Positions 9,261 through 26,627 of a DNA stretch of 59,588 nt are shown piece after piece. How positions within the stretch are numbered: position 1 is the first letter of the stretch; the number at the start of each line of letters is the position of its first letter. The notes under the pieces are model-generated. The model made no database searches. It was not told the origin of the DNA and saw nothing but the letters and a program-made list of their open reading frames with translations. The DNA is from a virus, in the IMG/VR virus record IMGVR_UViG_3300021403_000011, positions 1 to 59,588 of that record; one strand, given 5' to 3'. A program made the position numbers and the translations under genes.

Positions 9261-10067
9261 GTGGGTGCGCTCGCATACAACCCAGACGTCGCCATAGCCC
9301 GCGCGAAGTACCAGCAGCGGGTCATCGACGCGCGCACCAGCCTCCAGAACTTCATCGAGTTCGCCGGCCGCTCCGAGGAGGGCGCCGGCATCGAGCTGGA
9401 CCACATCCACAAGATGTGGTGCCACCACCTGACCTACTGCTGGTCGCGCGGCCTGCACGCGGGCATCCTGGCGCCGTTCGGGTCCGGCAAGTCGTCGACC
9501 CTGGCGGTGCCCCTGTCGTGCTACCTGATCGGGCGCAACCCGCAGATCCGGATCAAGTTGGTGGCCAACCACGACGACTACGCCAAGCGCCGGGTCGGCG
9601 CCGCGAAGGCGATCATGGAGACCGTCGAGTACCAGCAGGTCTTCCCGCACATCGTGCCAGGTGAGAAGTGGACCGACCACGAGCTCGAGGTGGCGCGCAT
9701 GCGCGGCCCGATCGATCCCACGCTCCACGCGCGCGGCGTCCTGACTGCCGGCGTCGGCACGCGCGCTGACGTCGAGATCTTCGACGACGTCTGCGACCAG
9801 CTCAACAGTGAGGAGCCCGGCAGCCGGCGCAAGGTGAAGGAGTTCGTGCGCCGCACGTGGCTCTCCCGCCTCGACCAGAAGGCCGGGCGCGCGCTCTGGA
9901 TAGCGACGCCCTGGGACCCGGACGACGCGACCTACGACTTGATGCACGACCAGAAGTGGGCGTTTCTTGTCCAAAGGGTCGCTAAGAGCCACACCGAATA
10001 CGACCAGGAAGTCTTCAATGTCGGCGACGACTATACGGTCGGGTTGGAGGCAATATTGAAGAGATGA
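9261..10067 (+). CDS. terL (N-terminal part): terminase large subunit, N-terminal ATPase half (268 aa)
   Basis: This is the ATPase domain of the DNA-packaging motor. Walker A APFGSGKSS is at about 72-79, Walker B VEIFDD at about 171-176, and the coupling motif LWIATPW at about 212-218. The leaderless GTG at 9261 is chosen because a TAACAT box precedes it. The ORF stops right after the ATPase domain, and its TGA overlaps the ATG of an HNH gene. The nuclease domain, normally in the same chain, is encoded at 25869-26627. Base use shifts toward A/T after about 9960, as if the last 30 codons came with the HNH gene. Both halves together give about 520 aa, the usual terminase length. Confidence 0.88.
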   Translation: MGALAYNPDVAIARAKYQQRVIDARTSLQNFIEFAGRSEEGAGIELDHIHKMWCHHLTYCWSRGLHAGILAPFGSGKSSTLAVPLSCYLIGRNPQIRIKLVANHDDYAKRRVGAAKAIMETVEYQQVFPHIVPGEKWTDHELEVARMRGPIDPTLHARGVLTAGVGTRADVEIFDDVCDQLNSEEPGSRRKVKEFVRRTWLSRLDQKAGRALWIATPWDPDDATYDLMHDQKWAFLVQRVAKSHTEYDQEVFNVGDDYTVGLEAILKR

Positions 10068-10597
10068 CCCACGGAAATGCTCGCCTGCGCCGCCCGCTGC
10101 GCATCTTCGAGGACCGAGTGGAGATCCCGCTGACGCGCGGCAAGGTCGCGATCGTCGACCTGATCGATGCGGACCTCGCGTACTTCAATTGGACGACGGA
10201 GGCCAGTCAGGACGGACTGCGGTGGTACGCGCATCGCAATGGCCCGCGTCCCCGTCGGGAATGCATAAAGCTCCACCGCGAGATCGCGAAACGGATGGGG
10301 CTCAAGTTGAACGGGCGGGAAGTCGATCACCACGATGGCGATGGACTCAACTGCCGGCGGGTCAACCTGAGGCGCGCGTCCAGCGGTCAGAACAAGCACA
10401 ACGCGAGGAAGCCGCGCAACAACAAGAGCGGGTTCAAAGGGATCTCATGGAGGCAGGACAGCCAGAAATGGCAGGTCCACATCCAGGCCAATAAGAAAGC
10501 CCACTACCTGGGATTGTTCGCTGACCTGTCAACCGCGGTCGCCGCGCGGTCTGAGGCCGCGCAGCGTCTCCACGGGGAGTACGCCCGGGCCGTGTAA
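10064..10597 (+). CDS. HNH homing endonuclease with AP2-like domain (177 aa)
   Basis: ATG 10064 overlaps the stop of the terminase ATPase half. HNH motif: LHREIAKRM, then EVDHHDGDGLNCRRVNLR and an SGQNKHN tail (about 66-115). A C-terminal AP2/ERF-like DNA-binding module (SGFKGISWRQ ... LGLFADLSTAVAARSEA) covers about 124-170. The N-terminal IPLTRGKVAIVDLIDADLAY block is shared with the HNH gene at 25324, so the two are paralogues. AT-richer than its neighbours, consistent with recent acquisition. The TAA stop is part of the next TAATAT box. Confidence 0.88.
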   Translation: MTHGNARLRRPLRIFEDRVEIPLTRGKVAIVDLIDADLAYFNWTTEASQDGLRWYAHRNGPRPRRECIKLHREIAKRMGLKLNGREVDHHDGDGLNCRRVNLRRASSGQNKHNARKPRNNKSGFKGISWRQDSQKWQVHIQANKKAHYLGLFADLSTAVAARSEAAQRLHGEYARAV

Positions 10598-10602
10598 TAT
10601 CC
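10593..10602 (+). promoter_or_regulatory. TAATATCC element (near-exact), leaderless promoter
   Basis: TGTAATATCC differs from the consensus only at the first base. TAATAT 10595-10600 is 7 nt before ATG 10608 and contains the HNH stop codon. Confidence 0.6.
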
Positions 10603-10607
10603 CCCGC

Positions 10608-10964
10608 ATGAGCATCAACGCCAAGGAAGCCAAGGAACTGGGCGACCTCGTGGTCGAGGCGGCGCCGGGCCTCGGGGAGACGCCGCTGGCCAAGCTCCAG
10701 GAGCTCCTGGCCATCGTCATCGCCGAGACCACCAAGACGAACAACGGGGTCGAGGAGCGGGTGCGCGAGGCCGGCAGCATCCCCCCCGACATCACCATCG
10801 TGCTCATGCACTACGGCGCGCTGACGGCGATCTACCGCGACCTCCCGTCCGGCGACAGCCGGCGCGCTCTCATCCTCGCCGGCGAGCAGGTCGGCGCGTT
10901 CATCGCGAAGAAGTACGGCGAGAAGCTCCGAAGTGAGCTCACCGCCAAAACCACCACGCACTGA
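10608..10964 (+). CDS. helical hypothetical protein (118 aa)
   Basis: ATG 10608 is the leaderless start after TAATAT. It is mostly alpha-helical and mildly acidic, with a conserved-looking middle (PPDITIVLMHYGALTAIYRD, about 64-83) and a Lys-rich C-terminus. No motif is recognised. It is the first gene of the segment between the terminase halves; a small-terminase role was considered but there is no HTH signature. Confidence 0.55.
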   Translation: MSINAKEAKELGDLVVEAAPGLGETPLAKLQELLAIVIAETTKTNNGVEERVREAGSIPPDITIVLMHYGALTAIYRDLPSGDSRRALILAGEQVGAFIAKKYGEKLRSELTAKTTTH

Positions 10965-10981
10965 GAGGAGCCGAACCCGCC

Positions 10982-11482
10982 ATGGCCAAGCCCAGGAACC
11001 CACGCACACCCAAGCAGAAGGACGAGATCGTCAGCCGCGTGAAGCGGATGCTGCCCTGCGCCATCGACGAGAAGGTCACCAAGAAGAAGGAGAAGCGCAT
11101 CGTCCACGCGCTGACCGAGAAGAAGGACGAGCAGGAGAAGATGAACGCGGAGATCCTGCCCCGTCGGAAGAAGATCAAGGAGCTCGAGGGGGAGATCGAG
11201 ACCCTCCGCGCGCAGATCGAGAACGGCACCGAGGACCGCGAGGTGCTGTGCGACGTCGTCAAGGACTTCATCCACCACAAGGTGCTGGTCCGCCGCCGCG
11301 ATACCGGCGACGTCGTCGAGGACCGGACGATGACCGAGGAGGACCGCCAGGAGGACCTGCTCAAGGCCAGGGGTAAGAAGGCCAAGGCCGGCGAGGCGGA
11401 TACCGATGACAATGACCACGGCGACGTCGACGACGAGGGCGAGATCCCACCCGACGGTGACGGTGAGCCCGAGGTCCACTAG
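10982..11482 (+). CDS. coiled-coil protein with acidic tail (166 aa)
   Basis: ATG 10982 follows GAGAGGAGCC. Residues about 10-80 are Lys/Glu-rich with heptad-like Leu/Ile spacing (RRKKIKELEGEIETLRAQIE), a confident coiled coil. The last about 40 residues are Asp/Glu-rich and disordered. Cys at about 26 and 82 could be structural. Function unknown; it could be an oligomeric scaffold or nucleoid-type protein. Confidence 0.6.
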   Translation: MAKPRNPRTPKQKDEIVSRVKRMLPCAIDEKVTKKKEKRIVHALTEKKDEQEKMNAEILPRRKKIKELEGEIETLRAQIENGTEDREVLCDVVKDFIHHKVLVRRRDTGDVVEDRTMTEEDRQEDLLKARGKKAKAGEADTDDNDHGDVDDEGEIPPDGDGEPEVH

Positions 11483-11484
11483 CC

Positions 11485-11586
11485 GTGACGGGCGCCGGCG
11501 AGTACCTGGCCGACCTGGGGTGGCGTGTCGCCACCGCGGCGGTGGTGCTGCTCGGCGCGCTGCTCCTGTTCGGCCCCTGGCCCTAG
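11485..11586 (+). CDS. single-TM micropeptide (33 aa)
   Basis: GTG 11485 starts 2 nt after the preceding stop. One transmembrane segment (VATAAVVLLGALLLFG) fills the second half and the chain ends GPWP. The short upstream overlap implies translational coupling. It resembles other single-span micropeptides here (22425, 22806). Function unknown. Confidence 0.45.
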   Translation: MTGAGEYLADLGWRVATAAVVLLGALLLFGPWP

Positions 11587-11620
11587 ACGGCCGGGGGCCG
11601 AGCGTGGCAGCATCGGTCCC

Positions 11621-12055
11621 ATGAGCACCGTCTGCCGCTACATCTTCCTGCTAGCTCTCGGTGGTTGGCTGTCGTCCCAGGTCGCGAGCTGCGCCACCAC
11701 CACGGCTGTCGTCGCGACGGTCAAGGACTGCGGGAACCAGGTCACGAATACCGTGGCCCGCGGCATCTTGAACGACGTCTCGACGGCGGTCGTGTGCGAC
11801 GGCGGCAGCGTCAGCGCGCTCCCCGCGTGCGTCCTGGCCGGCCTGGCGTCGATCGCCAAGCAGGCGGGCTGGGCGGCGGTCGACTGCGCCCTGGCCGAGG
11901 TCCAGAAGGACGCGGCGAGCAACGTGAACAACCTCCCCGCGGCCTCCGCCCCCGACGAGCAGGAGCTGCTCAGGTGGCGGCGCGCGAGCGCGGCGATCGC
12001 CTGGAGGTCCGGGCCGGACGGGGGATCCGGCACCGCGCCCCCAGGGGCGCCATGA
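11621..12055 (+). CDS. putative lipoprotein (144 aa)
   Basis: ATG 11621 lies 7 nt after a CAGCAT box. The N-terminus is a signal sequence with hydrophobic core FLLALGGW and lipobox VASC, predicting lipid attachment at Cys24. The mature part contains several more Cys and Ala-rich helices. Phage lipoproteins often block superinfection or alter the envelope; here that is only a possibility. Its TGA overlaps the next ATG. Confidence 0.6.
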   Translation: MSTVCRYIFLLALGGWLSSQVASCATTTAVVATVKDCGNQVTNTVARGILNDVSTAVVCDGGSVSALPACVLAGLASIAKQAGWAAVDCALAEVQKDAASNVNNLPAASAPDEQELLRWRRASAAIAWRSGPDGGSGTAPPGAP

Positions 12056-12780
12056 GCTGCATCGCCGTCGTCAACCGCGTCCCCGGGCTCGACGACGGGG
12101 ACGCGGCATTCTGGGCCGAAGCCTGGAACCAACAGGCGCGCGAGGTCGCGGACGTGCATGGGGTCCAGTACACCCCGGTGGTCTTCTACGGCACGGCCGA
12201 GGGACTGCCGATCGACTGCCGCATCCTGCAGGTCCTGCCCCAGATCGACGTGCCGGGCGCTTCCGGGTTCCACGACGACGACCTCGGGGTGGTGTTCGCC
12301 GAGATAAAGGTGACGGCCGAGACGTCGGTCACCGGGTCGCACGAGGTCGCCGAGGAGATGGCCGACCCGACGGTCAACCTCTGGGACCCGTTCGACGACG
12401 ACCACGAGCAGGCGCACGAGCTCTGCGACCGCGTCGAGGGCGACTTCTACGTCCAGCAGGCGACGGTGCTCGGCAAGACGCGTTCGGTGCAGGTGTCGAA
12501 CTACCTGCTGCCGTCCGCCTTCGACCCGGGCGGCAAGGCGCCGTTCGACCGGATGGGCAGGCTCACGTCCTGGAACGGGATGACGGCCGGTGGCTACGTG
12601 ATCGTCAGGGACATCGGCACAGGCAAGGTCAGCGACGTCTTCAAGGACGACGGCGTCGGCAGCGGGCACGTCGCCGCGCGCCGCGCCCCCCGCGTCATCC
12701 CGGGGCCTGCCGCCGCCGCCGCTATCACCGAGAAGCTCGGCAGGTCCGGCTCCCGCCTCGCCCGCCGCCTCCGCGGCTAG
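12052..12780 (+). CDS. putative zincin-like protein with SHEVAEEMADP motif (242 aa)
   Basis: Residues about 87-95 read SHEVAEEMA followed by DP; HELCDRVEGDFY follows at about 121-132. SHE-x-x-E followed by a downstream E-x-C-D-x-V-E segment and an SNYLLP strand recurs, to my memory, in uncharacterised phage and bacterial proteins thought to be metal-binding. The His/Glu arrangement resembles a truncated HExxH zinc site, but the second His is missing. The C-terminus is basic and Ala-rich. ATGA coupling to the lipoprotein gene suggests joint expression. Proteolysis is not demonstrated. Confidence 0.5.
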   Translation: MSCIAVVNRVPGLDDGDAAFWAEAWNQQAREVADVHGVQYTPVVFYGTAEGLPIDCRILQVLPQIDVPGASGFHDDDLGVVFAEIKVTAETSVTGSHEVAEEMADPTVNLWDPFDDDHEQAHELCDRVEGDFYVQQATVLGKTRSVQVSNYLLPSAFDPGGKAPFDRMGRLTSWNGMTAGGYVIVRDIGTGKVSDVFKDDGVGSGHVAARRAPRVIPGPAAAAAITEKLGRSGSRLARRLRG

Positions 12781-12796
12781 GTCAACTGACCGGGCG

Positions 12797-12806
12797 GGTA
12801 ATATCC
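12797..12806 (+). promoter_or_regulatory. GGTAATATCC element, leaderless promoter
   Basis: Exact decamer. TAATAT 12799-12804 is 7 nt before the ATG of the HNH gene at 12812. Confidence 0.65.
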
Positions 12807-12811
12807 CGTCC

Positions 12812-13273
12812 ATGGGTAGCCGCGTCGGCGTCCTGAAGATAGCCGCCAAAAAGCTCGGCCTGGAGTTCGGCTGCGACACATGGCACCCGCGGTCAGCGTT
12901 CGGCGCGGATAAGAGCCGCAATGACGGGTTAGCTGCGGCGTGCACAAAGGCCAGGGCGGCGACGCATCCTCCAGGGTGGGAACCCGCGCCAAAGACGAAC
13001 CCTCTTACGGGTAAGCCGGGGCCGGCTCCGGCCCTTGGCCGCGATGGCGACAAGATCCAAGCCAGGTCGCGGATCAATCGTGAGGTCAAGAACGGTTCAA
13101 GGCCGAACCCAAACACGGTCCCGTGCACCGACTGCGGGCACTTGGGCAAGGATCGGCGACATGAACACGACCACTATCGTGGCTACGCTGCTGAACATCA
13201 TGGGGATGTCCAGGTGGTCTGTAGTCGGTGCCACCACGAGAGGGAGATGAAGCGTGGGCGAAACGTCCATTGA
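12812..13273 (+). CDS. HNH endonuclease (153 aa)
   Basis: C-terminal HNH module: CTDCGH (about 108-113), HEHDHYRGY (about 119-127), then VVCSRCHHERE (about 137-147); the two CxxC pairs bind structural zinc. The N-terminal half is basic and Pro-rich, with no recognised DNA-binding fold. It has its own TAATAT promoter and its last 20 nt overlap the DUF5131 gene start. It looks like an independently transcribed mobile gene placed upstream of DUF5131. Base composition is less GC-rich than flanks. Confidence 0.8.
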   Translation: MGSRVGVLKIAAKKLGLEFGCDTWHPRSAFGADKSRNDGLAAACTKARAATHPPGWEPAPKTNPLTGKPGPAPALGRDGDKIQARSRINREVKNGSRPNPNTVPCTDCGHLGKDRRHEHDHYRGYAAEHHGDVQVVCSRCHHEREMKRGRNVH

Positions 13274-14282
13274 ATGGAGCCAATTTACGGTCAACCCCAT
13301 CCGCGCGCGGCCGAAGAACAAGCCGGGCGCGCGCTCGGGGCACTACTGCGAGAAGGTCAGCCCCGGCTGCAAGAACTGCTACAGCTCGAGCTTCCAGCCG
13401 CGATTCGGCATGCCGCGGTTCGAGGACGCGGAGATCGACGACCTGGAGGTCTACCTGGACCCCGAGGTCCTGAGGCAGGTACTGCGCCGCCGGCAGCCGA
13501 CGAAGTTCTTCTGGTGCTCGATGACGGACGTGTTCGGGCGCTGGGTTCCGGACGAGTGGATCGCGGCCTGCTTCGGGGTGATGGCGGCGACGCCCCACCA
13601 CACCCACCAGGTGCTGACGAAACGCGCGGAGCGCCTGCCCCAATGGTTCGAGTGGATCAAGGGCCAGTGTTTTACCGGTAATCCGTTTCTGCAGGATTCG
13701 TATGCCCTGTGTTCCACGTGCGCATTCCTTACGCAGGACGTCGCCGGGATCGATGTCCAGAAAGAATCAAGGTCTCCGATAGCAGGCCGAGCTGCTTGGC
13801 CGCTATCCAACGTCCACGTCGGGGTCAGCGTCGAGACCCAGGAGTACGCCGACCTGCGGATCCCGCTGCTGCGCAAGGTGCCGGCGGCAGTGAAGTTCGT
13901 CAGCGCCGAGCCGCTGCTGGGCCCGGTCAACATCTTCGACGTCGACCAGGAGGACGGCGACTACGGTCCCGGATGGGACCTCAAGCACGTCGAGCACCGG
14001 ACCGACTATGGGACTGGCGTCGAGCACGACGTCGACGCGCAGACGGGCATTGATTGGGTCATCGTGGGCGGCGAGAGCGGGAACCGCGCGCGCGATTGCG
14101 ACCTGGCCTGGATGCGCTCCCTGGTCCGGCAATGCCAGCGCGCCCAGGTCCCGGTCCTGGTCAAGCAGCTCGGCGCGCGGCCGGTCGACGGCGGCCAACT
14201 CATCCAGCTGCGCGGCAGCAAGAAGGGCGGGGACATAGAAGAATTTCCGAACGAGTTGCGGGTCCGGGAGTTCCCGCTGTGA
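13254..14282 (+). CDS. phage Gp37/Gp68-like (DUF5131) protein (342 aa)
   Basis: The start SIEWSQFTVNPIRA and the YCEKVSPGCKNCY Cys cluster (about 31-43) match the DUF5131 family, which has a radical-SAM-like CxxxxxC-x2-C motif. Later blocks FFWCSMTDVFG, HTHQVLTKR, NVHVGVSVETQEYADLRIP, FVSAEPLLGP and WVIVGGESG are the usual landmarks of the family. A roughly 45-residue Cys-containing stretch (about 135-180) with lower GC sits where relatives are shorter. The biochemical role of the family is unclear. It begins inside the HNH gene, with GGGAGATGAAGC before its GTG. Confidence 0.85.
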   Translation: MGETSIEWSQFTVNPIRARPKNKPGARSGHYCEKVSPGCKNCYSSSFQPRFGMPRFEDAEIDDLEVYLDPEVLRQVLRRRQPTKFFWCSMTDVFGRWVPDEWIAACFGVMAATPHHTHQVLTKRAERLPQWFEWIKGQCFTGNPFLQDSYALCSTCAFLTQDVAGIDVQKESRSPIAGRAAWPLSNVHVGVSVETQEYADLRIPLLRKVPAAVKFVSAEPLLGPVNIFDVDQEDGDYGPGWDLKHVEHRTDYGTGVEHDVDAQTGIDWVIVGGESGNRARDCDLAWMRSLVRQCQRAQVPVLVKQLGARPVDGGQLIQLRGSKKGGDIEEFPNELRVREFPL

Positions 14283-14425
14283 AACGCATCTGGCGCTGGC
14301 TGCGCGCGCGCTGGCGGGGAGAGCTGACAGACGAGGAGCTAGGACAAGTTCAGGTGGCGGTGCGCCTGGGGATCCGAGACGCATTTAGGGATCTCGGTTT
14401 TAAGGTCGACGAAAGGGAGCAATGA
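14279..14425 (+). CDS. small basic helical protein (48 aa)
   Basis: GTG 14279 overlaps the preceding TGA, and its own TGA overlaps the next ATG. Arg/Trp-rich start (IWRWLRARWRGE), then an acidic helix. Double coupling in a tight operon supports that it is real. Function unknown. Confidence 0.5.
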   Translation: MKRIWRWLRARWRGELTDEELGQVQVAVRLGIRDAFRDLGFKVDEREQ

Positions 14426-14865
14426 AAGTTCTGTCGGCCTGGCAGCCCTACGCGCAGCTGATGGTGCTGGGCAGCAAGGGCATCGAGACGCGCGGCTGGC
14501 CCCTCGGCGTCGTGCCGCAGCGGATCGCGATCCACGCCGCGAAGTCCGTCAGGGCGCTGCGTGAGGTGTTCACGCAGCCGCACTTCTACGAGGCGCTCGA
14601 AGCGGCCGGCTTCACCCACTCGGAGGCGCTTCCGCTCGGCGCGCTGGTCGGGACCGTCGAGGTCTACGGCTGCACCCCGACGGAGGAGGTCGACCCGGCG
14701 GTGATCGGGATGCGTGAGTACGCATTCGGTGACTACGGCCCCAAGCGCTTCGCGTGGCACCTGCGCAACCAGGTGAGCTTCCCGCCGATCCCGATGGTCG
14801 GGCACCAGGGGCTGCGCGAGCTCCCGCCGGACATCCTGGCGTTCATCCCGGAGCGCGCGCTGTGA
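14422..14865 (+). CDS. ASCH-domain protein (147 aa)
   Basis: The opening VLSAWQPYAQLMVLGSKGIE followed by TRGW is the hallmark of ASCH domains, a PUA-like RNA/nucleotide-binding fold. A later GALVGTVEVYGC strand and FAWHLRN complete the barrel. Some ASCH proteins are ribonucleases or hydrolyse modified cytidines; in phages the substrate is mostly unknown. It is coupled by ATGA upstream and by GTGA to the UDG-like gene downstream, so both may act on nucleic-acid bases. Confidence 0.85.
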   Translation: MKVLSAWQPYAQLMVLGSKGIETRGWPLGVVPQRIAIHAAKSVRALREVFTQPHFYEALEAAGFTHSEALPLGALVGTVEVYGCTPTEEVDPAVIGMREYAFGDYGPKRFAWHLRNQVSFPPIPMVGHQGLRELPPDILAFIPERAL

Positions 14866-15326
14866 GCGTCGCGATCGTCGGGGAGCTGAACCCATACGGC
14901 GCCAACCCGCGCTATGCGCTTTACCACGAGCCGCGCAACGCGAGCGGCGACCGTCTCCGGCGCATCCTGGGGCTCACGGTGCGCAGCTACGTGCCGTTGC
15001 CGAAGTACAATCTCTGCGTCGGGGACTGGTCGATGAAGGCGGCGCGCGCGCGGGCGCAAGAAATCTGGGACGCGCACGACCTGATCGTCACGCTGGGAGT
15101 CCGGGTGCGCAGCGCCTTCAACCAGCTGATCGGCACGCCGGGTTGTTCTGGGGTCGGCTTGGACATGATCCACGGGCACACGGTGGTCACTCTGCCGCAC
15201 CCGTCAGGGCTGTGCCGCGCGTGGAACATCACGGAGAACGTGGCCGACGCGCGCGAGCTGGTGCAGCGGTACACGGGCCTGCCGTGTGGCGAGGTCGAGG
15301 AGTTCCTCCGCGGGGCCGGGACGTGA
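14862..15326 (+). CDS. uracil-DNA-glycosylase-superfamily-like protein (154 aa)
   Basis: It begins with the strand VAIVGELNPYGANPRYALY and the ASGDRLRRILGL helix, then LCVGDWSM. The end has LPHPSGLCRAWN (about 111-122), the position of the HPS-type catalytic loop of UDG-like folds. Short single-domain phage members of this group are known to me, but their substrates are not. It may excise or sense modified bases. The context (ASCH partner, three DNA methyltransferases in the window) fits a base-modification role. Confidence 0.7.
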   Translation: MSVAIVGELNPYGANPRYALYHEPRNASGDRLRRILGLTVRSYVPLPKYNLCVGDWSMKAARARAQEIWDAHDLIVTLGVRVRSAFNQLIGTPGCSGVGLDMIHGHTVVTLPHPSGLCRAWNITENVADARELVQRYTGLPCGEVEEFLRGAGT

Positions 15327-15556
15327 TCCCCTGCGATGCCGATAGACCCCTGTACCTGGGGGCGTGGCGCAAGAAGGACCGGGTCCGGGATCGGTTCCGC
15401 GGGTGGGCGGACGAGACGCGCGTGACGTCGTGCCGAACGGTCACCGGCGGCCGGTTGGTCACGATCGAGACCCCCGGGTGCCCACCCGCCGAGATCTGGG
15501 CCTGGGAGCTGCTGGAGATCTACGAGGAGGCGCGCGGTGAACCCGACCTTCTGTAA
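15323..15556 (+). CDS. hypothetical protein (77 aa)
   Basis: GTG 15323 overlaps the preceding TGA. A Trp/Arg-rich, mixed alpha/beta small protein with Cys at 4, 37 and 52. It shares 20 nt with the next gene. No family recognised; tight coupling in the 13.2-15.8 kb operon supports expression. Confidence 0.5.
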   Translation: MIPCDADRPLYLGAWRKKDRVRDRFRGWADETRVTSCRTVTGGRLVTIETPGCPPAEIWAWELLEIYEEARGEPDLL

Positions 15557-15761
15557 GGGGTGCGGCAAGCCGATCCGGTGGTACCAGGACGACCGCAGCG
15601 GCAAGCGGTTGCCGCTCGACCCTGACCCGCACCCCGACGGGGACATGCGCGTCAACGTCGTGCGAAACGACGTCGCGCGCGTGAAGAAGGGGTCCCACGC
15701 CCCCCTCTACCGCCTGCACTTTGACACCTGCGCCAAACCCTGGAGCGGTCCACGAAAATAG
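15537..15761 (+). CDS. zinc-knuckle protein (74 aa)
   Basis: Starts NPTFCKGCGKPIRWYQD: an N-terminal CxxC knuckle (about 6-9) with a paired H-x2-TCAK (about 61-66) near the C-terminus. The middle has DPDPHPDGDM. Similar one-knuckle proteins that begin with a CxxCG-x-I motif are common in high-GC phages. GTG start inside the previous gene. The stop at 15761 lies inside the conserved promoter region that follows. Confidence 0.6.
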   Translation: MNPTFCKGCGKPIRWYQDDRSGKRLPLDPDPHPDGDMRVNVVRNDVARVKKGSHAPLYRLHFDTCAKPWSGPRK

Positions 15762-15763
15762 TT

Positions 15764-15793
15764 GTGGACAACCGTTACGATATTTACTAACGT
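15764..15793 (+). promoter_or_regulatory. conserved promoter, copy 1 (TGGACA-N17-TAACGT)
   Basis: TGGACA (15765-15770) and TAACGT (15788-15793) are 17 nt apart. The spacer contains CGTTACGATATTTAC, identical in three copies in this window. It drives the 15852 gene and the following operon. The leader holds CGGCGATGAGCCG (a 4-bp hairpin) and an AGGAGG ribosome site, both also present after copy 2. Spacer conservation suggests a regulator-binding site. Confidence 0.75.
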
Positions 15794-15851
15794 GGTCTGC
15801 GTAGGACGGGACGGCGATGAGCCGGGCCGAAACGAACCGAGGAGGTTCCCG

Positions 15852-16100
15852 ATGAGCGAGCGTGAGACGAGGTACTTCGAGAGGGTGGGCGCCGCGAAGA
15901 CTCCGGTGGCCCTGGCAGGCGCCTTCCGCCGCGGGCGTCGCAAGGTCGGCGATCGAGTCATGTTCCGCAATGGTTCGGCCCCTGGCGGCTGGCGCGCCGG
16001 TCGCGTGGTTGCCTGCGGGACCCACCGCGCTCGGGTGGCGTTCACGTTCTTCAACGGCCGCACCTCCGAGCGCAGCGTCCCATACGCGGACCTGCAGTAG
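15852..16100 (+). CDS. small basic protein (82 aa)
   Basis: ATG 15852 has CGAGGAGGTTCCC upstream. Helical N-terminus; the C-terminal 50 residues form a likely small beta barrel (KVGDRVMFRN ... GWRAGRVVACGTHRARVAFTF), reminiscent of SH3/Tudor-like KOW folds. It is first in the unit driven by the conserved promoter, so it may be an early protein. Function unknown. Confidence 0.6.
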   Translation: MSERETRYFERVGAAKTPVALAGAFRRGRRKVGDRVMFRNGSAPGGWRAGRVVACGTHRARVAFTFFNGRTSERSVPYADLQ

Positions 16101-16109
16101 CTGCAGCCT

Positions 16110-16142
16110 TGCCCGCCCGGCCTCACGGGGCCCGGCGGGGAG
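16110..16142 (+). terminator. GC-rich hairpin, possible terminator or attenuator
   Basis: CCCGCCCGGCC pairs with GGCCCGGCGGGG around a short loop. There is no U-run after it, so it may attenuate rather than end transcription. It lies between the 15852 and 16190 genes. Confidence 0.35.
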
Positions 16143-19141: not shown

Positions 19142-19149
19142 CCGTGCCG

Positions 19150-19764: not shown

Positions 19765-20318
19765 TGCGGTTCGCCACCATGGCGTCCGACCCGGCCTGGA
19801 AGTTCGGCGACAGACTTCCTGGCGCCGGGCGCGGTGCTGCTAAGAACTACCGCGTGATGTCCATCGAGGACATCATGCAGTACCCGATCCCGCCCATGCT
19901 CGACGACTCCTACCTGTTCCTGTGGCGGGTCTCGGCGATGGTCGAGGAGGCATACCGGGTCGTCCGCGCGTGGGACTTCAACCCGAAATCCGAGGTGGTC
20001 TGGGAGAAGCTCACGAAGGAGGGCAAGCCCTGGTTCGGTATGGGGCACCACGTGAGGGCCGCGCACGAGACCTGCATCATCGCTACGCGCGGGAGACCGA
20101 AGCGACTCGCGGCCAACGTCCGCAGCCGGTTCGCAGCGCCGGTACCGCGCGACGCCGATGGCAGGTACATCCACTCGGCCAAGCCCGAGGAGTTCTACAG
20201 GGACGTAGTGATGAGGCTCGCCGGCGGTCCCTACGTCGGGCTGTTCGAGCGCCGGCACCGCCCGGGGTGGGTGACGATCGGCGACCAGGCATGGGGACCA
20301 CCGGAGGTAGGAATATGA
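19764..20318 (+). CDS. MT-A70-family adenine methyltransferase (184 aa)
   Basis: The catalytic DPAW is at about 9-12, preceded by hydrophobic FATMAS; the YLFLW strand at about 52-56 and a downstream WEKLTKEGKPWFGMGHHVR block are typical of MT-A70 enzymes. HETCIIATRGRPKR (about 98-111) matches the later conserved strand. The length is short but covers the catalytic core. Phage members methylate N6 of adenine in DNA, protecting against restriction. Genes around it are unrelated small ORFs. Confidence 0.85.
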   Translation: MRFATMASDPAWKFGDRLPGAGRGAAKNYRVMSIEDIMQYPIPPMLDDSYLFLWRVSAMVEEAYRVVRAWDFNPKSEVVWEKLTKEGKPWFGMGHHVRAAHETCIIATRGRPKRLAANVRSRFAAPVPRDADGRYIHSAKPEEFYRDVVMRLAGGPYVGLFERRHRPGWVTIGDQAWGPPEVGI

Positions 20319-20587
20319 ACACGAGGTCGCAACGGATCGCGAAGGCGCGAGAGTACCTGACGATGGCGCAGCTGAACGACGCCGAGCAGCTCCTCCTGGC
20401 CGAGAGGTTGATCGACGAGGTGTTCGCCCGCGTGTGCCCGATGACGGACCCGCAGATATGCATCGCCGAGGGCTACCTGGCGTCCGCGTCGCACGCCGTC
20501 GAGCAGGCCAGATTGCTGGTCGAGTCGTGGCCGCATGACAGCCTCCCGGCCGACCCGGACCTCGAACCGGAGAACGTCCGTGGATGA
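20315..20587 (+). CDS. helical hypothetical protein (90 aa)
   Basis: ATG 20315 overlaps the MT-A70 stop. Nearly all alpha-helical, with a Cys pair. Co-translated with the methyltransferase. Unknown function. Confidence 0.55.
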   Translation: MNTRSQRIAKAREYLTMAQLNDAEQLLLAERLIDEVFARVCPMTDPQICIAEGYLASASHAVEQARLLVESWPHDSLPADPDLEPENVRG

Positions 20588-20921
20588 CGACAGGCACCTG
20601 TTCTCCCGCGGGTTCTTGGGGCAACCGGCCCCGGTGCCGAAGATGAGCCCGCTCCCGTGGACGCTCAAGGAGCACTTCAACCACGGTCCTGGCGGTCATG
20701 TCGACCGAGTCTGGGTCGTCCTGGACGCGGACAGCAAGGCGGTCGCGGAAGTCGACCGCTGGCAGGACGCTGACCTGATCGTCAGGTCGGTGGGCACCAG
20801 GGTCGAGCCGGGCACGATCGAGGAGCTGGTCTCGACCGCGAACCAGGCCATCGCCCGGGGGATCGCGCCGCACCTCGTGCTCGCGGCGCTGGAGACCCAC
20901 CTCGTGAGGAAGCTCTCGTGA
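20580..20921 (+). CDS. hypothetical protein (113 aa)
   Basis: GTG 20580 lies inside the previous gene. Alpha/beta: HVDRVWVVLDADSKAVAEV strand region, then helices. Possibly a small alpha/beta fold. Overlaps the next gene by 4 nt. Confidence 0.55.
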   Translation: MDDDRHLFSRGFLGQPAPVPKMSPLPWTLKEHFNHGPGGHVDRVWVVLDADSKAVAEVDRWQDADLIVRSVGTRVEPGTIEELVSTANQAIARGIAPHLVLAALETHLVRKLS

Positions 20922-21163
20922 TCCGCAGGTTCTTCCGGTGGCTGCGCCGCCTCCTCCCCTACCCCGGACCCCGGGGGGCGGCGCAGCCTGCAGTGCCGAG
21001 GCGGGTCCTGCACTTGATGGACCCGGGGATGCGCAGCGCCTGCGACGGCGCTGCGGCATCCGCGAAGAACTGGGTGACGGTCCAGCTCGAGCACGTCAAC
21101 TGCAAGGAGTGCCTGCGGATCGGCCGCCGCCGCCGCGTGCGCCGAGTGACGAGGGTGCGGTGA
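20918..21163 (+). CDS. basic Cys/His-containing protein (81 aa)
   Basis: GTG 20918. Arg-rich N-terminus (IRRFFRWLRRLLP), then HLMDPGMRSACDGAA and CKECLRIGRRRR. The H-x8-C, CxxC pattern suggests a zinc site, as in small phage finger proteins. The basic ends favour nucleic-acid binding. Unknown function. Confidence 0.5.
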   Translation: MIRRFFRWLRRLLPYPGPRGAAQPAVPRRVLHLMDPGMRSACDGAAASAKNWVTVQLEHVNCKECLRIGRRRRVRRVTRVR

Positions 21164-21384
21164 TGGGGACGATCGAGACGACCTGCGCCATCCTGGGCGG
21201 CCTGCTCCGCGGCGCGACCCACGACCGGCGTTCGCTGGCGCACGTCCACGGCATGACCGTCGCCTCCGCCGACCGCTACATCCGCCACCTGTCGACGGTC
21301 CCAGGCGTCGTGATCGTCAAGAAGGGGCGGCGGCTGCTGGTGTCCTTCTCATTCGGCGTAGCGCTGAAGGGCCTGGGGATATGA
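21163..21384 (+). CDS. winged-helix-like protein (73 aa)
   Basis: ATG 21163. Helix AILGGLLRGA, then DRRSLAHVHGMTVASADRYI (helix-turn-helix-like), and a hairpin VVIVKKGRRLLVSFSF (wing). The pattern matches a small winged-helix DNA-binding domain. It may regulate local transcription. The assignment rests on the pattern only. Confidence 0.55.
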   Translation: MGTIETTCAILGGLLRGATHDRRSLAHVHGMTVASADRYIRHLSTVPGVVIVKKGRRLLVSFSFGVALKGLGI

Positions 21385-21710
21385 ACCGCAAGGCCTTCCT
21401 TGAGCGCTACGGTCGCAGCCAGCGCGCCCCAGCGGTCATCCGGGTCCTGGAGGACGCCTTCAAGCTGGAGGCATACCTGCGCCGCAACTCGATCTTCATC
21501 GTGAAGCACGTCCCGGTCGACGGGTTCGTGACCGAGCTCCGCTGGGACCGCCGCACGAAAAGGAGCGAGTTACAGCTGCTGGTGGCGACGCTCCGCCAGA
21601 GCGGGACCGTCCACGTCCGCCCGATCAAACAGTGCAACTCCAGCCTTATCAAGGAACTGGGCCCGGCGCTGGCCACCCTCATACGCCGACTGACCGAGGT
21701 GGCACCGTGA
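21381..21710 (+). CDS. hypothetical protein (109 aa)
   Basis: ATG 21381 overlaps the winged-helix gene. Basic, mixed alpha/beta with a central strand (NSIFIVKHVPVDGFVTELRW). ATGA/GTGA overlaps on both sides. Unknown function. Confidence 0.55.
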   Translation: MNRKAFLERYGRSQRAPAVIRVLEDAFKLEAYLRRNSIFIVKHVPVDGFVTELRWDRRTKRSELQLLVATLRQSGTVHVRPIKQCNSSLIKELGPALATLIRRLTEVAP

Positions 21711-22009
21711 GCGACCTGGTCCGCTGCAGCTGCGGTTGGTCCGTACCGGAGGGCAGCGTCGTCGGCGTCCCGATGCTCGTGGTCCTGGCGCCGCACGTGA
21801 CCGACATGCTCCAGCACTGGCGCGACGGCCACCAGGTACAGTGCCGGTCCGAGCTGCGCCACCCGATCCGCTCCCTACTCAAGCGCTATCGCCAGCTCCA
21901 GCGCGAGAAGCACCACTCCGGCGACGACGCCGAGAACCTGCGCGAGGAGTTCCGCAGGCGCGGCCTCCGCTTCGAGGCATACGACCCCTTCACCGACGAG
22001 TGGAACTAG
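21707..22009 (+). CDS. zinc-finger-like protein (100 aa)
   Basis: GTG 21707. N-terminal VRCSCGWSVPEG, then H-x-x-D-M-L-Q-H-W plus a later H: a C-x-C ... H-x8-H arrangement that may bind zinc. C-terminal Arg/Glu-rich helix. Unknown function. Confidence 0.55.
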   Translation: MSDLVRCSCGWSVPEGSVVGVPMLVVLAPHVTDMLQHWRDGHQVQCRSELRHPIRSLLKRYRQLQREKHHSGDDAENLREEFRRRGLRFEAYDPFTDEWN

Positions 22010-22011
22010 GC

Positions 22012-22428
22012 GTGCCCGAGGAGACCACCATCAACGGCGAGCGCTGCGAGCTCATCACCGACTTCGAGCAGCTGCGCGAGGCGGACGTCGTCTACGTCGT
22101 CCGCTGCATGTTCTGCGGCGCGGCCCGCCACCGCGCGCTGCTCGGCCGCCGGTACCCGGCCGTGCCGTCCCGCGACCATCTGGGCACCGTCATGGTCTCC
22201 CCGGCCTTCTCGATGCTGCCCAACCCGCACGCGCGCCACAGCGAGGCCGTCCTGGTCCCGGCGAACGTCGACCAGCGGATGATCTGGCGGGTCATCGACC
22301 CCCAGAAGGCGACCGGCGAGGACATGAAGCGGGGCCAGCTGGACGCGCGGCCCCGGCAGAAGACGGACCTCGAGACGCTGGGCCAGGACCTGAAGCAGCA
22401 CCGCAAGCACGACAGGGAACGGTCGTGA
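22012..22428 (+). CDS. hypothetical protein (138 aa)
   Basis: GTG 22012, 2 nt after the preceding stop. Contains CMFCGAARHRALLG (about 33-46), a CxxC next to a basic stretch. Charged C-terminal third. Overlaps the micropeptide start at 22425. Unknown function. Confidence 0.55.
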   Translation: MPEETTINGERCELITDFEQLREADVVYVVRCMFCGAARHRALLGRRYPAVPSRDHLGTVMVSPAFSMLPNPHARHSEAVLVPANVDQRMIWRVIDPQKATGEDMKRGQLDARPRQKTDLETLGQDLKQHRKHDRERS

Positions 22429-22526
22429 GCTGGTGGGACGCCCCGCGCTTCAGCGCGCAGCACGTCGTGGCCTTCGTCATCGCGGTCAGCATCGTCGAGG
22501 TCCTCGTGATCCTGGCCCTGAGATAG
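22425..22526 (+). CDS. WW-P-R-S membrane micropeptide A (33 aa)
   Basis: GTG 22425 overlaps the previous TGA. Starts SWWDAPRFSAQHVV, then one TM helix. It shares its WW-x2-PR-x-S-x3-VV opening with the peptide at 22806, so the two are a paralogue pair flanking the 22536 gene. Confidence 0.5.
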   Translation: MSWWDAPRFSAQHVVAFVIAVSIVEVLVILALR

Positions 22527-22535
22527 GAGGAACCC

Positions 22536-22802
22536 ATGGGAAGTGACAGGCAGAGGTTCAGCACGGTCGCGTGCCCGTTCGGTTGCGACTGGTCGTGGGT
22601 CATCGTTGATTTCGCACCACCGCACTCGGTGCAGCACTACGTCGTCCCGGCGACCGGCGAGGACTCGATCGTCGTGATGGGCGAGGTCAACGGCCTCATC
22701 CCCCAGGTGACCGTCAGCATCCTCCGCCGCCACGCTGGCCAACTGAGCCCCAACTTCCTGTTCAAAAAGTCCCACACCTGCCCGAAGATCACCCGAGGTT
22801 GA
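22536..22802 (+). CDS. Cys-containing protein (88 aa)
   Basis: ATG 22536 has TAGGAGGAACCC upstream. CPFGCDW (about 13-19) and a C-terminal SHTC point to a Cys/His metal site. It lies between two related membrane micropeptides and may act with them. Unknown function. Confidence 0.55.
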   Translation: MGSDRQRFSTVACPFGCDWSWVIVDFAPPHSVQHYVVPATGEDSIVVMGEVNGLIPQVTVSILRRHAGQLSPNFLFKKSHTCPKITRG

Positions 22803-22805
22803 ACA

Positions 22806-22958
22806 TTGGCGAACAACGACCGCCCCGTGACCTGGTGGAACTGCCCGCGCATCAGCATCAAAGACGTGGTCTTGGTGACCGTCGGGTACCAGTTCGGGAG
22901 CTTCATCGGCCAGATCATCGTCGAACTGCTTCGCCGCGCGCTCGGGCTGGTATCCTGA
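22806..22958 (+). CDS. WW-P-R-S membrane micropeptide B (50 aa)
   Basis: TTG 22806, or GTG 22827 giving a closer match to peptide A. Contains VTWWNCPRISIKDVV, then a hydrophobic helix and a basic end. The frame is closed by TGA 22956. Reality is supported by the match to 22425; the start is uncertain. Confidence 0.4.
   Translation: MANNDRPVTWWNCPRISIKDVVLVTVGYQFGSFIGQIIVELLRRALGLVS
22951..22956 (+). promoter_or_regulatory. TATCCT -10 box, leaderless promoter
   Basis: TATCCT lies 7 nt before ATG 22964, with no SD. It overlaps the end of micropeptide B. Confidence 0.5.
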
Positions 22959-22963
22959 CCGCC

Positions 22964-24475
22964 ATGCCTTATGCGAGTAACCGTCAGCGGCGCTTCCTCC
23001 ACGCGGTCAAGCCCGAGGTCGCGGCGGTCTACGACCGGCACGAGCGCCAGGCCCCGGCGATCGGCTCCGCGGTCGACTTCTCGACCCTGCGCCAGCGCGG
23101 CCTGGTCGGCATCTCGGACCGCGTCATCGCCGACCACCTGGCGATGTACGAGCGGTGGTGCGCGGAGCTGCGGCTGCTGGACGCTGCGATCGCCTCGCGC
23201 CCGCTGACCGCGCCGGCGGCGATGCCGAGCGCGGCGGTGGAGGACCTGCTGCGCCGGCGGGTGCGCGACCTGCCGCTCCAGGAGATCAGCGGCCGGCTCG
23301 AGGAGGTGATCGACCAGCTCAAGGGCGAGTTCGTGGCGAGGGGGATCACGTGGTTCCCGACGTTCTACCTGGGCGAGGCGGACTTCTGGACGGCCGATCG
23401 GGCGACGTCGATCAACGTGCCGTGGTACCTGGGCGACGACGTGCTGTGGTCGTTCGTGAACGGGCAGGACGCGCGTTACACGCCTGAGGAGGTACTGGGG
23501 ATCCTGCGGCACGAGGCTGGGCACGCGCTCGGCTACGCGTTCGAGCTCTATCGGCGACAGGACTGGAAGCGCACCTTCGGCAACTTCGGCGCGTCCTACC
23601 GCGACGAGTTCCCGATCGACGCGCAGTCGACGGACTACGTGCGCCACCTCCACGTCATGGACGCCGGCGCCAACGCGCACTACGCCCAGAAGCACCCGGA
23701 CGAGGACTGGGCCGAGACCTTCGCCGTATGGCTCGACCCCGGCAGCCGCTGGCGCGAGGCCTACGCCGCGTGGCCCGGCGCGCTGGCGAAGCTCGAGGCA
23801 GTCGAGCTGATGCTGGTGGGTGAGGGCGCGGCTTACGGCCTGCCGTCGGACACCAGGATCGGCCGGCGGGTCCCGTACGCGACGCTCGACTACACCGTGG
23901 GCGAGTACCTGGGGCAGGCCGAGCAGGACCGGCCAGACCCGCGCGCGGCGGCGCTGCGGCGGCGGCCGGAGGTGTACAGCGCGGTGGTGCTGCACGAGCT
24001 GTACTTCGGTGGGCTTGAGCGCGGCGCCAACGGTCTCGGCCTGGCGCTGACCGGCCGCTTCGCCGAGCTGGCGGGCCCGGACTGGGCAGCTGACTTCCGC
24101 GTGGCGGCGGAGGCGTCCGGCGTCGGCTGGGTGCTCGCTGTCTGGGACCGGCGCGACAACCGGGTGCGCAACGTCCTGGTGAGGGGGCACGACCAGGGCG
24201 TGCCCCCGGGGTGCGAGGTCCTGCTGGCGCTGGACATGCACGAGCACAGCTACGCGGCCGACGTCGGCGCGCGCCGGGACGCGTACGTCGCGGCCTGGTT
24301 CCGCAACGTCTCGTGGTCGGTGGTGAACGGCCGGCTCGACCGCGCGTACCCGCCGCGCGTGGGGGCATTCACGATCGAGAACCCTAACGCGATGTTCGTC
24401 GGGGACCTCGCCGAGCGCAGTGATGCCGTCTTCGTGCGCCGCGACGTCGTCATCAAGCCGCCCGGGGACATATGA
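22964..24475 (+). CDS. zincin-like protease fused to superoxide-dismutase-like domain (503 aa)
   Basis: N-terminus PYASNRQRRFLHAVKPEVA is a common opening of phage proteins. The middle has HEAGH at about 183-187 with a possible third ligand in DWAETFAVW (Glu about 251), a zincin metalloprotease site. The C-terminal about 180 residues match Fe/Mn superoxide dismutase: HELYFGGL (His about 344), SGVGWVLAVWD, DMHEHSY (Asp about 424, His about 428) and YVAAWFRNVSWSVVN. The usual first ligand His in the N-terminal SOD hairpin is not evident. Leaderless start after TATCCT. Activity of either domain is untested, and the role is unknown (virion protease or redox protection are possible). Confidence 0.8.
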   Translation: MPYASNRQRRFLHAVKPEVAAVYDRHERQAPAIGSAVDFSTLRQRGLVGISDRVIADHLAMYERWCAELRLLDAAIASRPLTAPAAMPSAAVEDLLRRRVRDLPLQEISGRLEEVIDQLKGEFVARGITWFPTFYLGEADFWTADRATSINVPWYLGDDVLWSFVNGQDARYTPEEVLGILRHEAGHALGYAFELYRRQDWKRTFGNFGASYRDEFPIDAQSTDYVRHLHVMDAGANAHYAQKHPDEDWAETFAVWLDPGSRWREAYAAWPGALAKLEAVELMLVGEGAAYGLPSDTRIGRRVPYATLDYTVGEYLGQAEQDRPDPRAAALRRRPEVYSAVVLHELYFGGLERGANGLGLALTGRFAELAGPDWAADFRVAAEASGVGWVLAVWDRRDNRVRNVLVRGHDQGVPPGCEVLLALDMHEHSYAADVGARRDAYVAAWFRNVSWSVVNGRLDRAYPPRVGAFTIENPNAMFVGDLAERSDAVFVRRDVVIKPPGDI

Positions 24476-24687
24476 GCCGCCGTCGGATCCCCGAGGCCGC
24501 TAATCACGCCGCGAAAGACCCGCGCGGAATCTGGGGCGAGCTGCATTTCGTCCCTGACGGCAGACGATCGGTCTACTGGGTCTCGCGGCGCTACAGGGGC
24601 GGTTGGGTCATCAACGTCTGGCATCGCTGGGTCCCGAGGACGCACCATCAGGTCAGGCCCGCGGGGATGTTCGACCGTCGCGGGTAA
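24472..24687 (+). CDS. small basic protein (71 aa)
   Basis: ATG 24472 overlaps the fusion gene stop. Basic, Trp/His/Arg-rich with beta strands (SVYWVSRRYRGGWVINVWHR). Its TAA is inside the next TAATAT. Unknown function. Confidence 0.55.
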   Translation: MSRRRIPEAANHAAKDPRGIWGELHFVPDGRRSVYWVSRRYRGGWVINVWHRWVPRTHHQVRPAGMFDRRG

Positions 24688-24692
24688 TATCC
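24683..24692 (+). promoter_or_regulatory. GGTAATATCC element, leaderless promoter
   Basis: Exact decamer, 8 nt before ATG 24699; contains the previous stop codon. Confidence 0.65.
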
Positions 24693-24698
24693 CCATCG

Positions 24699-24962
24699 AT
24701 GGTCAGCGAGTATGTCGTCGGGCAGTGGCTGTTCGTCCGTTTTTGCGGGATGGACTGCTTCGGGAAGTTCGTCCATGCCAAGGAGCACCAGGTCGTGGTC
24801 GACGTCTTTTATGCCGAGTCAAAACCGGCTAACTATTTACCGACGAGAGCGGTCGATTACTTCGGTCAAAACGGATTGAGGAATCCGCCGTCACGGGTCG
24901 ATTTCGGGCGCGCCGCGTGCTTGATCGCCCCGGTCGAACCGCCATTGGTCCTGCCGGCCTGA
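24699..24962 (+). CDS. hypothetical protein with low-GC coding (87 aa)
   Basis: ATG 24699 after TAATAT. Beta-rich, with aromatic residues (VVGQWLFVRFCGMDCFGKFV). A noticeably lower GC content than neighbours suggests recent transfer. Unknown function. Confidence 0.55.
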   Translation: MVSEYVVGQWLFVRFCGMDCFGKFVHAKEHQVVVDVFYAESKPANYLPTRAVDYFGQNGLRNPPSRVDFGRAACLIAPVEPPLVLPA

Positions 24963-24997
24963 CACCGCGCTGGTGCGCGCGGTCTACCCGGACCTGG

Positions 24998-25003
24998 TAC
25001 CCT
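24998..25003 (+). promoter_or_regulatory. TACCCT -10 box, leaderless promoter
   Basis: TACCCT lies 6 nt before GTG 25010. No SD. Confidence 0.5.
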
Positions 25004-25009
25004 GATCGC

Positions 25010-25276
25010 GTGGTCAAGAAGGCCGCCGCCGCCCGGAAGTCCCGCCGCCAGCTCGCCACGGTGCACGCGCTCCCGGGCGCCGACCGCCCCGAGGACTCGC
25101 TCAAGCGCCTGCACGAGGTGCTTGCCAATGAGGCCCCGAGCGCGGTCATCATCATCAGCGTGGACGCCGGCGGGAAGATCGACGTCAGCAGCTTCGGCAA
25201 GCACGACGACGAGCAGCTGATGGTGGCGGCCGCGCGCATCATGCTGGTCGTGGCGCAGGGCCAGGCCGGCGAGTGA
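25010..25276 (+). CDS. hypothetical protein (88 aa)
   Basis: GTG 25010. Basic helical N-terminus, then an alpha/beta half (SAVIIISVDAGGKIDVSSFG and a C-terminal helix). The TGA stop overlaps a GTG (25273) that begins the abandoned copy of the terminase nuclease start, showing that this gene was once directly followed by that ORF. A paralogue-like pattern is seen in the 27235 gene. Confidence 0.6.
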   Translation: MVKKAAAARKSRRQLATVHALPGADRPEDSLKRLHEVLANEAPSAVIIISVDAGGKIDVSSFGKHDDEQLMVAAARIMLVVAQGQAGE

Positions 25277-25320
25277 ACCGCGGCCAGCAGCTCCCGTCGA
25301 TCCCGACGGTAATATCCTAA
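25273..25320 (+). pseudogene. remnant of terminase nuclease-half start (15 codons)
   Basis: GTG 25273 opens NRGQQLPSIP, the same first 11 codons as the intact ORF at 25869, then diverges and stops at TAA 25318. Every difference between the two copies is at a third codon position or the first base of the start codon. It is the left flank of the inserted HNH gene. Confidence 0.8.
25308..25317 (+). promoter_or_regulatory. GGTAATATCC element, leaderless promoter of HNH gene
   Basis: Exact decamer that begins 2 nt after the point where the two copies of the terminase start diverge (25306), 8 nt before ATG 25324. It probably arrived with the HNH gene. Confidence 0.65.
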
Positions 25321-25323
25321 GCC

Positions 25324-25872
25324 ATGCGCTTTATCGACCTGACCGGCGACATCTTCGGTCGCTTGGTCGTAATGGAACGAGCGCCGAGTCGCGCGCGGAA
25401 CGTCTACTGGTGGTGCCAATGCTCGTGTGGTCAGCGCTGTGCTGTGATGGGTGAGCTGCTGCGCCTGGGGAAGACGAGTTCATGCGGGTGCCTCAAGGCG
25501 GAGACGTACTACCAGATCGACGTGAAGCGCCCGGCAGTCATCGACGGGGACATTGTCCGCATCCAGCTGACCAAGGGCCTGGTGGCGATCGTCGACCTGG
25601 TCGACGCTGACCTGGCACTGTTCAACTGGTGCGCGCTCAAAGGTCGTGACACCTGGTACGCGGCTAGGAACAAGACCGTACCGGAACGCGAGACCATTCT
25701 CCTGCACCGCGAGGTGGCGAAGCGGGCCGGCCAGGCGATCGATGGGTTGGAAGTGGACCACAAGAACGGCGACGGCTTGGACTGCCGGCGGGACAACCTC
25801 AAGCCCGCCAGCCGTTCCCAGAACGCGATCAACACCCGCCGGTATCGCGAGAAACTGGCTACTCTCGGATGA
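25324..25872 (+). CDS. HNH homing endonuclease (182 aa)
   Basis: N-terminal zinc-ribbon: GRLVVMERAPS, WWCQCSCGQR, then SSCGCLKAE (about 12-58), a module common at the front of phage HNH proteins. The middle IQLTKGLVAIVDLVDADLAL is shared with the HNH at 10064. HNH core: LLHREVAKRAG, EVDHKNGDGLDCRRDNLK, SRSQNAINT (about 124-175). No AP2 domain. Its TGA overlaps the ATG of the terminase nuclease half. AT-richer than its surroundings. Leaderless after GGTAATATCC. Confidence 0.88.
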   Translation: MRFIDLTGDIFGRLVVMERAPSRARNVYWWCQCSCGQRCAVMGELLRLGKTSSCGCLKAETYYQIDVKRPAVIDGDIVRIQLTKGLVAIVDLVDADLALFNWCALKGRDTWYAARNKTVPERETILLHREVAKRAGQAIDGLEVDHKNGDGLDCRRDNLKPASRSQNAINTRRYREKLATLG

Positions 25873-26627
25873 ATCGCGGGCAACAACTGCCGTCGATACC
25901 GTGCTGGTCCTTAAAGCACCCCAAGAAGGCCCTCGACGACCTGGCGCGCGACGAGGGGACGTGGAACCGCGGCTACGCGATGAACCCGATCTCCCCGGGC
26001 GAGCTGAAGTTCCCCAACTTTGAGAAGTGCCGGAAAACCGGGATCCTGCTGTCGGACCTGCACCAGCGCCAGCTGCCGGCCTACGTCGGGGTCGACCTGA
26101 GCTCCAAGAACCGCCCCGGCAACGCGATCGTGGTCGTGGGGCTCGAGCCACCGCTGATGCGCCGGTACCTGCTCGAAGTCCGGTTCGGCGCCTGGACCAG
26201 CCCGGACACCGCGTCGAACCTGGCCGAGGTCTGCTCCCACCACAACGTCCAGTGGATCCAGGTCGAGAACAACGCCTACCAGCAGGCCATCATCGACTGG
26301 GTCAAGAAGGAGAAGGCCAAATTCCCCTACTGGATGAAGATCATGCCGTTCACCACCGGCGCGGGGAAGGCAGACCCGCAGTACGGCCTGCCGGGCCTGG
26401 AGGTCGAGTTCAAGAACGACGGCTGGGTGATCCCCTACTCCGAGTACGAGAGCCACCCGACGACCTGCCTGTGCGACTGGTGCCACCTCGACAATGAGTT
26501 CCGGAACTACCCGCGCGCGGCGACGAGCGATGGCGTGATGGCGACCTGGTTCGCGAGGGACGCGGCGAACAAGTGGGCGCCCCGGACCGGCGGCGCCCGG
26601 GTGAAGGGGAACGTCCGGCGCAGGTAA
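25869..26627 (+). CDS. terL (C-terminal part): terminase large subunit, C-terminal nuclease half (252 aa)
   Basis: RNase-H-like nuclease of the packaging motor. Catalytic acids are placed at Asp76 (YVGVDLS), Glu133 (IQVENN) and Asp221 (ATSDGVMATW). The KFPNFEKC block at about 47-54 is the usual junction just before the nuclease. ATG 25869 overlaps the HNH stop. Its first 11 codons are a recoded version of those at 25273. Joined to the ORF at 9261 it makes a normal-length terminase, so it is a domain-split gene rather than a decayed one. The TAA is part of the next TAATAT box. Confidence 0.88.
   Translation: MNRGQQLPSIPCWSLKHPKKALDDLARDEGTWNRGYAMNPISPGELKFPNFEKCRKTGILLSDLHQRQLPAYVGVDLSSKNRPGNAIVVVGLEPPLMRRYLLEVRFGAWTSPDTASNLAEVCSHHNVQWIQVENNAYQQAIIDWVKKEKAKFPYWMKIMPFTTGAGKADPQYGLPGLEVEFKNDGWVIPYSEYESHPTTCLCDWCHLDNEFRNYPRAATSDGVMATWFARDAANKWAPRTGGARVKGNVRRR

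Follow-up and report, generated by a model that had tools for sequence, protein, structure and literature searches.

The large terminase (TerL), the force-generating packaging motor of phages, has been portrayed as universally a chain of two domains (PMC7824862). The terminase considered here shares its family, motifs, and domain order with the T7 gp19 type (phrog_38; DNA maturase B, PDB 4bij), which is one chain. In the virus contig IMGVR_UViG_3300021403_000011 of IMG/VR (positions 1 to 59,588; this whole stretch of 59,588 nt is termed the window), the ATPase and the nuclease are instead encoded by two genes, and the ATPase chain carries a conserved new tail.

Other divided genes offer partial parallels. 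The UL15 terminase gene of herpes simplex virus consists of two exons, with other genes between them, that are joined by mRNA splicing. Unrelated genes likewise separate the terminase coding parts in the window, but no splicing signal is seen. Phage genes can also be split by homing endonucleases, for example nrdA of T4-like phages. The window resembles that case in having two half genes with HNH genes alongside; here, however, the HNH genes look later than the split, were not found at other splits, and the halves lie far apart. Actinophage annotation guides reportedly list ATPase-domain and nuclease-domain terminase genes. Two PHROGs families labelled terminase large subunit, phrog_4758 (243 positions) and phrog_5573 (250 positions), may include further terminases of half size. 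In Jug phages, terL is likewise found in two to three fragments, split by introns; the fragments are co-transcribed, and splicing is backed by metatranscriptome reads (PMC12363816). In the phages described here, by contrast, no intron was found, and most members have 5–17 kb of other genes between the halves. Jumbo phages, too, have normally single enzyme chains that are divided, namely a minimal DNA polymerase III alpha, whose genes lie far apart, and subunits of RNA polymerase (PMC7824862), but these are different enzymes from a force-generating packaging motor. An initial sequence-only reading of the window knew of no terminase with halves so widely separated, and no earlier account of a terminase split across distant genes was found in the open-licence literature.

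Two Halves of One Terminase

The genes at 9261 and 25869 are the ATPase and nuclease halves of a T7 gp19-like large terminase, corresponding overall to phrog_38 positions 258–471 and 483–715, respectively. The first open reading frame (ORF) contains the Walker A (GSGKSS), Walker B (EIFDD), and coupling (IATPW) motifs of an ASCE ATPase and matches positions 264–471 of the phrog_38 profile (terminase large subunit, E = 1e-27). The second matches positions 484–697 (E = 1e-12), consecutive to the part covered by the first. Its RNase H-like nuclease fold is predicted from this profile match and from the acidic residues D76 (GVDL), E133 (VEN), and D221 (DG.M), none of which varies when the chain is aligned with its split and intact relatives. 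The motifs and acidic residues that the sequence-only reading had assigned to the two ORFs are thus borne out by the family search it had proposed and by the alignment. In Pfam the matches of the two halves stayed below threshold; the family assignment is therefore based on PHROGs and the relatives. The stop of the first half and the start of the second are 15.8 kb apart.

The terminase is divided rather than decayed, as had been claimed, with catalytic residues kept and the halves forming two ORFs in nine phages (the window among them) from different IMG/VR datasets. Were one or both halves mere remnants, an intact terminase would be expected elsewhere in the genome, and the window, a linear contig, may lack part of that genome. 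This is nonetheless very unlikely. A search of the whole record found phrog_38 at just two places in the window, with no third match, and in relatives of 87–93 kb (G004–G006) the profile again finds only the two halves; terminases of other families were searched in part (PF03237). The active sites are kept in all. In the closest pair of nuclease halves (G015 and G016), nonsynonymous and synonymous divergence are dN 0.007 and dS 0.49 (dN/dS about 0.014), and the nuclease half is under strong purifying selection in this one pair.

Position of the Break

Alignment to intact relatives, another of the checks proposed at the outset, located the break, which probably separates the ATPase core from the lid/hinge. 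The phrog_38 matches end at 468–477 and resume at 483–487 in the window and in G004–G006, whereas they are continuous in G007 and G009. The intact order at the junction is seen in G009 (a weak match to 4bij, E = 1e-4), where it reads IGTPW...WRAVENPEAPSEAWVPIWPEQF...FxRKY. In the split members, the ATPase chain stops shortly past the first strand after the coupling motif and has acquired a tail of the EQEVxNxGxDY type, of which residue Q249 is invariant in eight aligned ATPase halves. The nuclease chain begins just ahead of the segment aligned with WPEQF. By analogy with known TerL structures (T4, reviewed in PMC9958956, and D6E), the conserved break probably falls after the ATPase core and ahead of the lid helix; the link between hinge and nuclease would then stay covalent. 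The tail of the ATPase chain (about residues 239–268) may have a docking role.

Whether the halves could be rejoined after transcription, by an intron that is trans-spliced or very long, or after translation, by a split intein, bears on this junction. There are precedents in the introns that split terL of Jug phages (PMC12363816) and the inteins in TerL of Mic1 (PMC7156551), and one split relative, G025, carries an intein-like in-frame insertion at Walker A of its terminase. Rejoining is nevertheless very unlikely. Rfam showed neither a group I nor a group II intron at the junction, each half has a stop and a start of its own, and in G018 and G052 the two genes overlap by 4 bases. Inspection of the aligned ends, rather than a profile search, revealed no N- or C-terminal intein parts: the tail of the N half is short and the C half begins ~12 residues before a conserved tryptophan, which intein parts would not fit. 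As a separate observation, intein-like in-frame insertions lie inside the terminase ORFs of G025 (L148), G049 (L157), and G054 (L156).

Relatives and History of the Split

Relatives were found through the major capsid protein (MCP), first 9 and later 64 IMG/VR loci. Neither half, when scanned directly, retrieved relatives from IMG/VR, and the C half retrieved none from cultured phages. The joined halves had no match when scanned against genome contigs, and an alignment of T7-type terminases was too diverse for scanning. Two further MCP relatives, Kromp and phiKX1, were too distant to inform on the break.

The MCP tree unites the split phages in a single clade (97/99), in which nine uncultured phages group with the window. 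Both halves are separate genes on the same strand in 8 of the 9; for the other, G016, only the nuclease half was found, near the contig start. The halves of seven members are 5–17 kb apart: 14–17 kb in G004, G005, and G006 (87–93 kb, halves on one strand), 13.5 kb in G013, 10.5 kb in G015, 5.3 kb in G022, and 13 kb in G025. Those of G018 are adjacent, with a GTGA overlap. An assembly error, which the sequence-only reading had named as a possible refutation, has in its favor that metagenome contigs are the only source, but the same architecture on one strand recurs in divergent, independent contigs from many IMG/VR datasets, and an artefact is effectively ruled out.

The sister group has a single-gene terminase in 13 of 14 contigs. 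One ORF runs through the junction in G007, G009, G028, G036, G039, G040, G046, G049, G053, G054, G055, and G057; G029, in which stops were also reported, is counted as single-gene from a survey of further records only. The exception is G052 (L149), whose terminase is split with a GTGA overlap (record positions 42847–44717) and whose nearest MCP relatives are intact. G052 lies outside the clade of the window, inside the otherwise intact sister group, and its split is independent. The split therefore has at least two origins, one of them at the base of the clade that contains the window. Because the halves are adjacent in G018 and, independently, in G052, the break is probably older than the wide separation. 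The adjacent, 5-kb, and 17-kb forms make this history of gene fission readable, and such phages would be missed or double-counted by terminase surveys and TerL-based taxonomy.

The nuclease half of the window is 41–58% identical to the C halves of relatives. Its ATPase half is 42–48% identical to the N halves of six of seven split relatives and 36% identical to that of G022. The ATPase half of G022 (L147, 9412–10488) is 359 aa long; judged by eye, the additional sequence at its C-terminus resembles a KTSC domain. Apparent stops inside the ATPase half of G015 came from a profile match that ran upstream, and the frame is open; those inside the terminases of G039, G040, and G055 lie outside the terminase frame.

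HNH Genes Beside the Halves

Each half was said to abut an HNH gene, the two being paralogous, and this is confirmed. Both genes (HNH1 and HNH2) encode HNH_3 endonucleases and share a block with a DNA identity of 75% over 69 bp and 69% over 107 bp. They differ in their extra domains: HNH2 begins with a phrog_374-type block, whereas AP2 is matched weakly in the C-terminal part of HNH1. Both overlap a terminase gene, HNH1 at the end of the ATPase gene and HNH2 at the start of the nuclease gene.

The terminase ends facing these genes differ in codon usage from the rest. The GC content of third codon positions (GC3) is 0.95 in the ATPase gene up to its last 35 codons, where it drops to 0.69. In the nuclease gene, codons 2–11 have a GC3 of 0.60, compared with 0.97; the value for the HNH genes is 0.82. 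Given these drops, each HNH gene probably arrived together with a recoded terminase end, which may guard the gene from HNH cutting. Upstream of HNH2 lies a relict of the original 5' end of the nuclease gene, VNRGQQLPSIPT, identical to the present nuclease start over ten residues, with DNA differing at synonymous sites and the start codon only. The next best six-frame match in the window has 6 of 10 residues. The position of the relict GTG start upstream of HNH2 means that the nuclease gene had its own start before HNH2 arrived; HNH2 is later than the split.

The homing endonucleases that the sequence-only reading had offered as a likeness are consequently an improbable cause of the split. They would have split the terminase and separated its pieces, and it speaks for such a cause that two paralogous HNH genes abut exactly the break-facing ends and that these ends are recoded. 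For the present HNH genes, however, it is contradicted by the surviving pre-insertion start. No homologues of HNH1 or HNH2 were found in records G002–G010, in searches run without a positive-control genome, and no HNH motif occurs near the halves of eight other split phages, although the same motif finds both HNH genes of the window. Thus no endonuclease gene that arrived with the split was seen at the break in the split members. Conceivably, an HNH gene was present in the common ancestor and later lost. The HNH genes, together with the recoded ends of the terminase genes, illustrate how elements of this kind establish themselves next to an essential gene.

A Putative Two-Chain Packaging Motor

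Most likely, the large terminase of the clade is translated as two separate chains, which come together on the portal without a covalent bond. Chain 1 would comprise the ASCE ATPase core and the new C-terminal tail, and chain 2 the lid/hinge segment and the RNase H-like nuclease. The two-chain motor implied by the sequence-only reading stands as regards separate genes for both halves, which occur in nine phages; that the two chains work jointly as a motor is probable. A break between ATPase core and lid would first have turned a single-gene terminase into two cistrons, the arrangement seen in G018. The gap would then have come to be occupied by accessory genes, this order of split and cargo being the probable one, and two HNH genes would have inserted beside the halves of the window, bringing recoded terminase ends.

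Several points weigh against this proposal. Once separated, the ATPase and nuclease domains of T4 gp17 retain their activities, but translocation is lost if the hinge is missing (PMC9958956); that two chains would function is therefore not a safe assumption. In the present case the break seems, by alignment, to precede the hinge. AlphaFold models of both halves are poor (predicted local distance difference test scores, pLDDT, of 44–45) and lend no fold support. For the ATPase half, dN/dS comes from divergent pairs with large dS and is uninformative; its conservation is accordingly judged from motifs. The virus is known from metagenome contigs alone, and the window may be a fragment, as its relatives measure 82–93 kb.

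A natural two-chain terminase, kept in a clade and re-arisen in G052, makes it possible to ask directly whether coupling depends on a covalent link at this point. Tentatively, and with less than even likelihood, the motor might be heteromeric, with the ATPase ring and the lid-hinge-nuclease subunits as separate proteins and force passing across a non-covalent joint. If so, the two subunits could differ in amount, loading time, or stoichiometry.

Features of the Window

Table 1. Coordinates of the terminase halves, the genes around them, and promoter-like sites in the window.
Feature	Position	Strand	Remarks
Terminase ATPase chain (N half)	9261..10067	+	268 aa; GTG start, TGA stop; phrog_38 match
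Recoded C-terminal part of ATPase gene	9960..10064	+	codons 234–268; protein still conserved (YxQEVxNxGxDY-type tail)
HNH1, free-standing HNH_3 endonuclease gene	10064..10597	+	overlaps ATPase-gene stop (ATGA); Pfam HNH_3; phrog_99, E = 5e-35
Intervening accessory block	10598..25272	+	about 14.7 kb; content varies between relatives
Peptidase_Mx-like/Sod_Fe_C-like gene	22964..24475	+	503 aa; Sod_Fe_C match, E = 2e-13
Small gene	25010..25276	+	stop overlaps old nuclease start (GTGA at 25273–25276)
Relict original 5' end of nuclease gene	25273..25308	+	VNRGQQLPSIPT; GTG start in GTGA overlap with previous gene
HNH2, free-standing HNH_3 endonuclease gene	25324..25872	+	inserted behind about codon 12 of nuclease gene; preceded by GGTAATATC box
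Terminase nuclease chain (C half)	25869..26627	+	252 aa, including lid/hinge-like N-terminal segment; ATG start; phrog_38 match
Portal gene	30275..31972	+	usual neighbor of intact TerL; adjoins it in G007 and G009 too
GGTAAYATC sites	1842, 12797, 19150, 24683, 25308, 26623, 34269, 36274, 38487, 53034 (-), 56009		

The gap between the halves behaves as a site for accessory genes. The 503-aa gene is the only gap gene common to seven split phages (the window, G004, G005, G006, G013, G015, and G016), and it always lies upstream of the nuclease half. It was not detected in G018, G022, G025, or the intact phages searched. DUF5131, MT-A70, and other gap genes are common to fewer phages. The tree places G018 together with G015, which implies either a loss of cargo in G018 or repeated entry of cargo.

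Promoter-like boxes recur in the window. GGTAAYATC is found 11 times against 0.1 expected, and a promoter-like CGTAACATC box, similar to this motif, stands 8 nt before the GTG start of the ATPase gene. Seven called genes have a TAAYAT box no more than 16 nt from their start, an arrangement resembling the promoter of leaderless messages.

The IMG/VR contig 3300050821_006559 is identical to positions 28022–53091 of the window over the stretches compared and stops short of the terminase halves. At 3739–6294, an Apiosidase-like domain occurs with Collagen_bind_2, perhaps in a depolymerase. A dispersed repeat, 73–94% identical between copies, is present at 15765–15854, 34399–34472, and 59531–59562.
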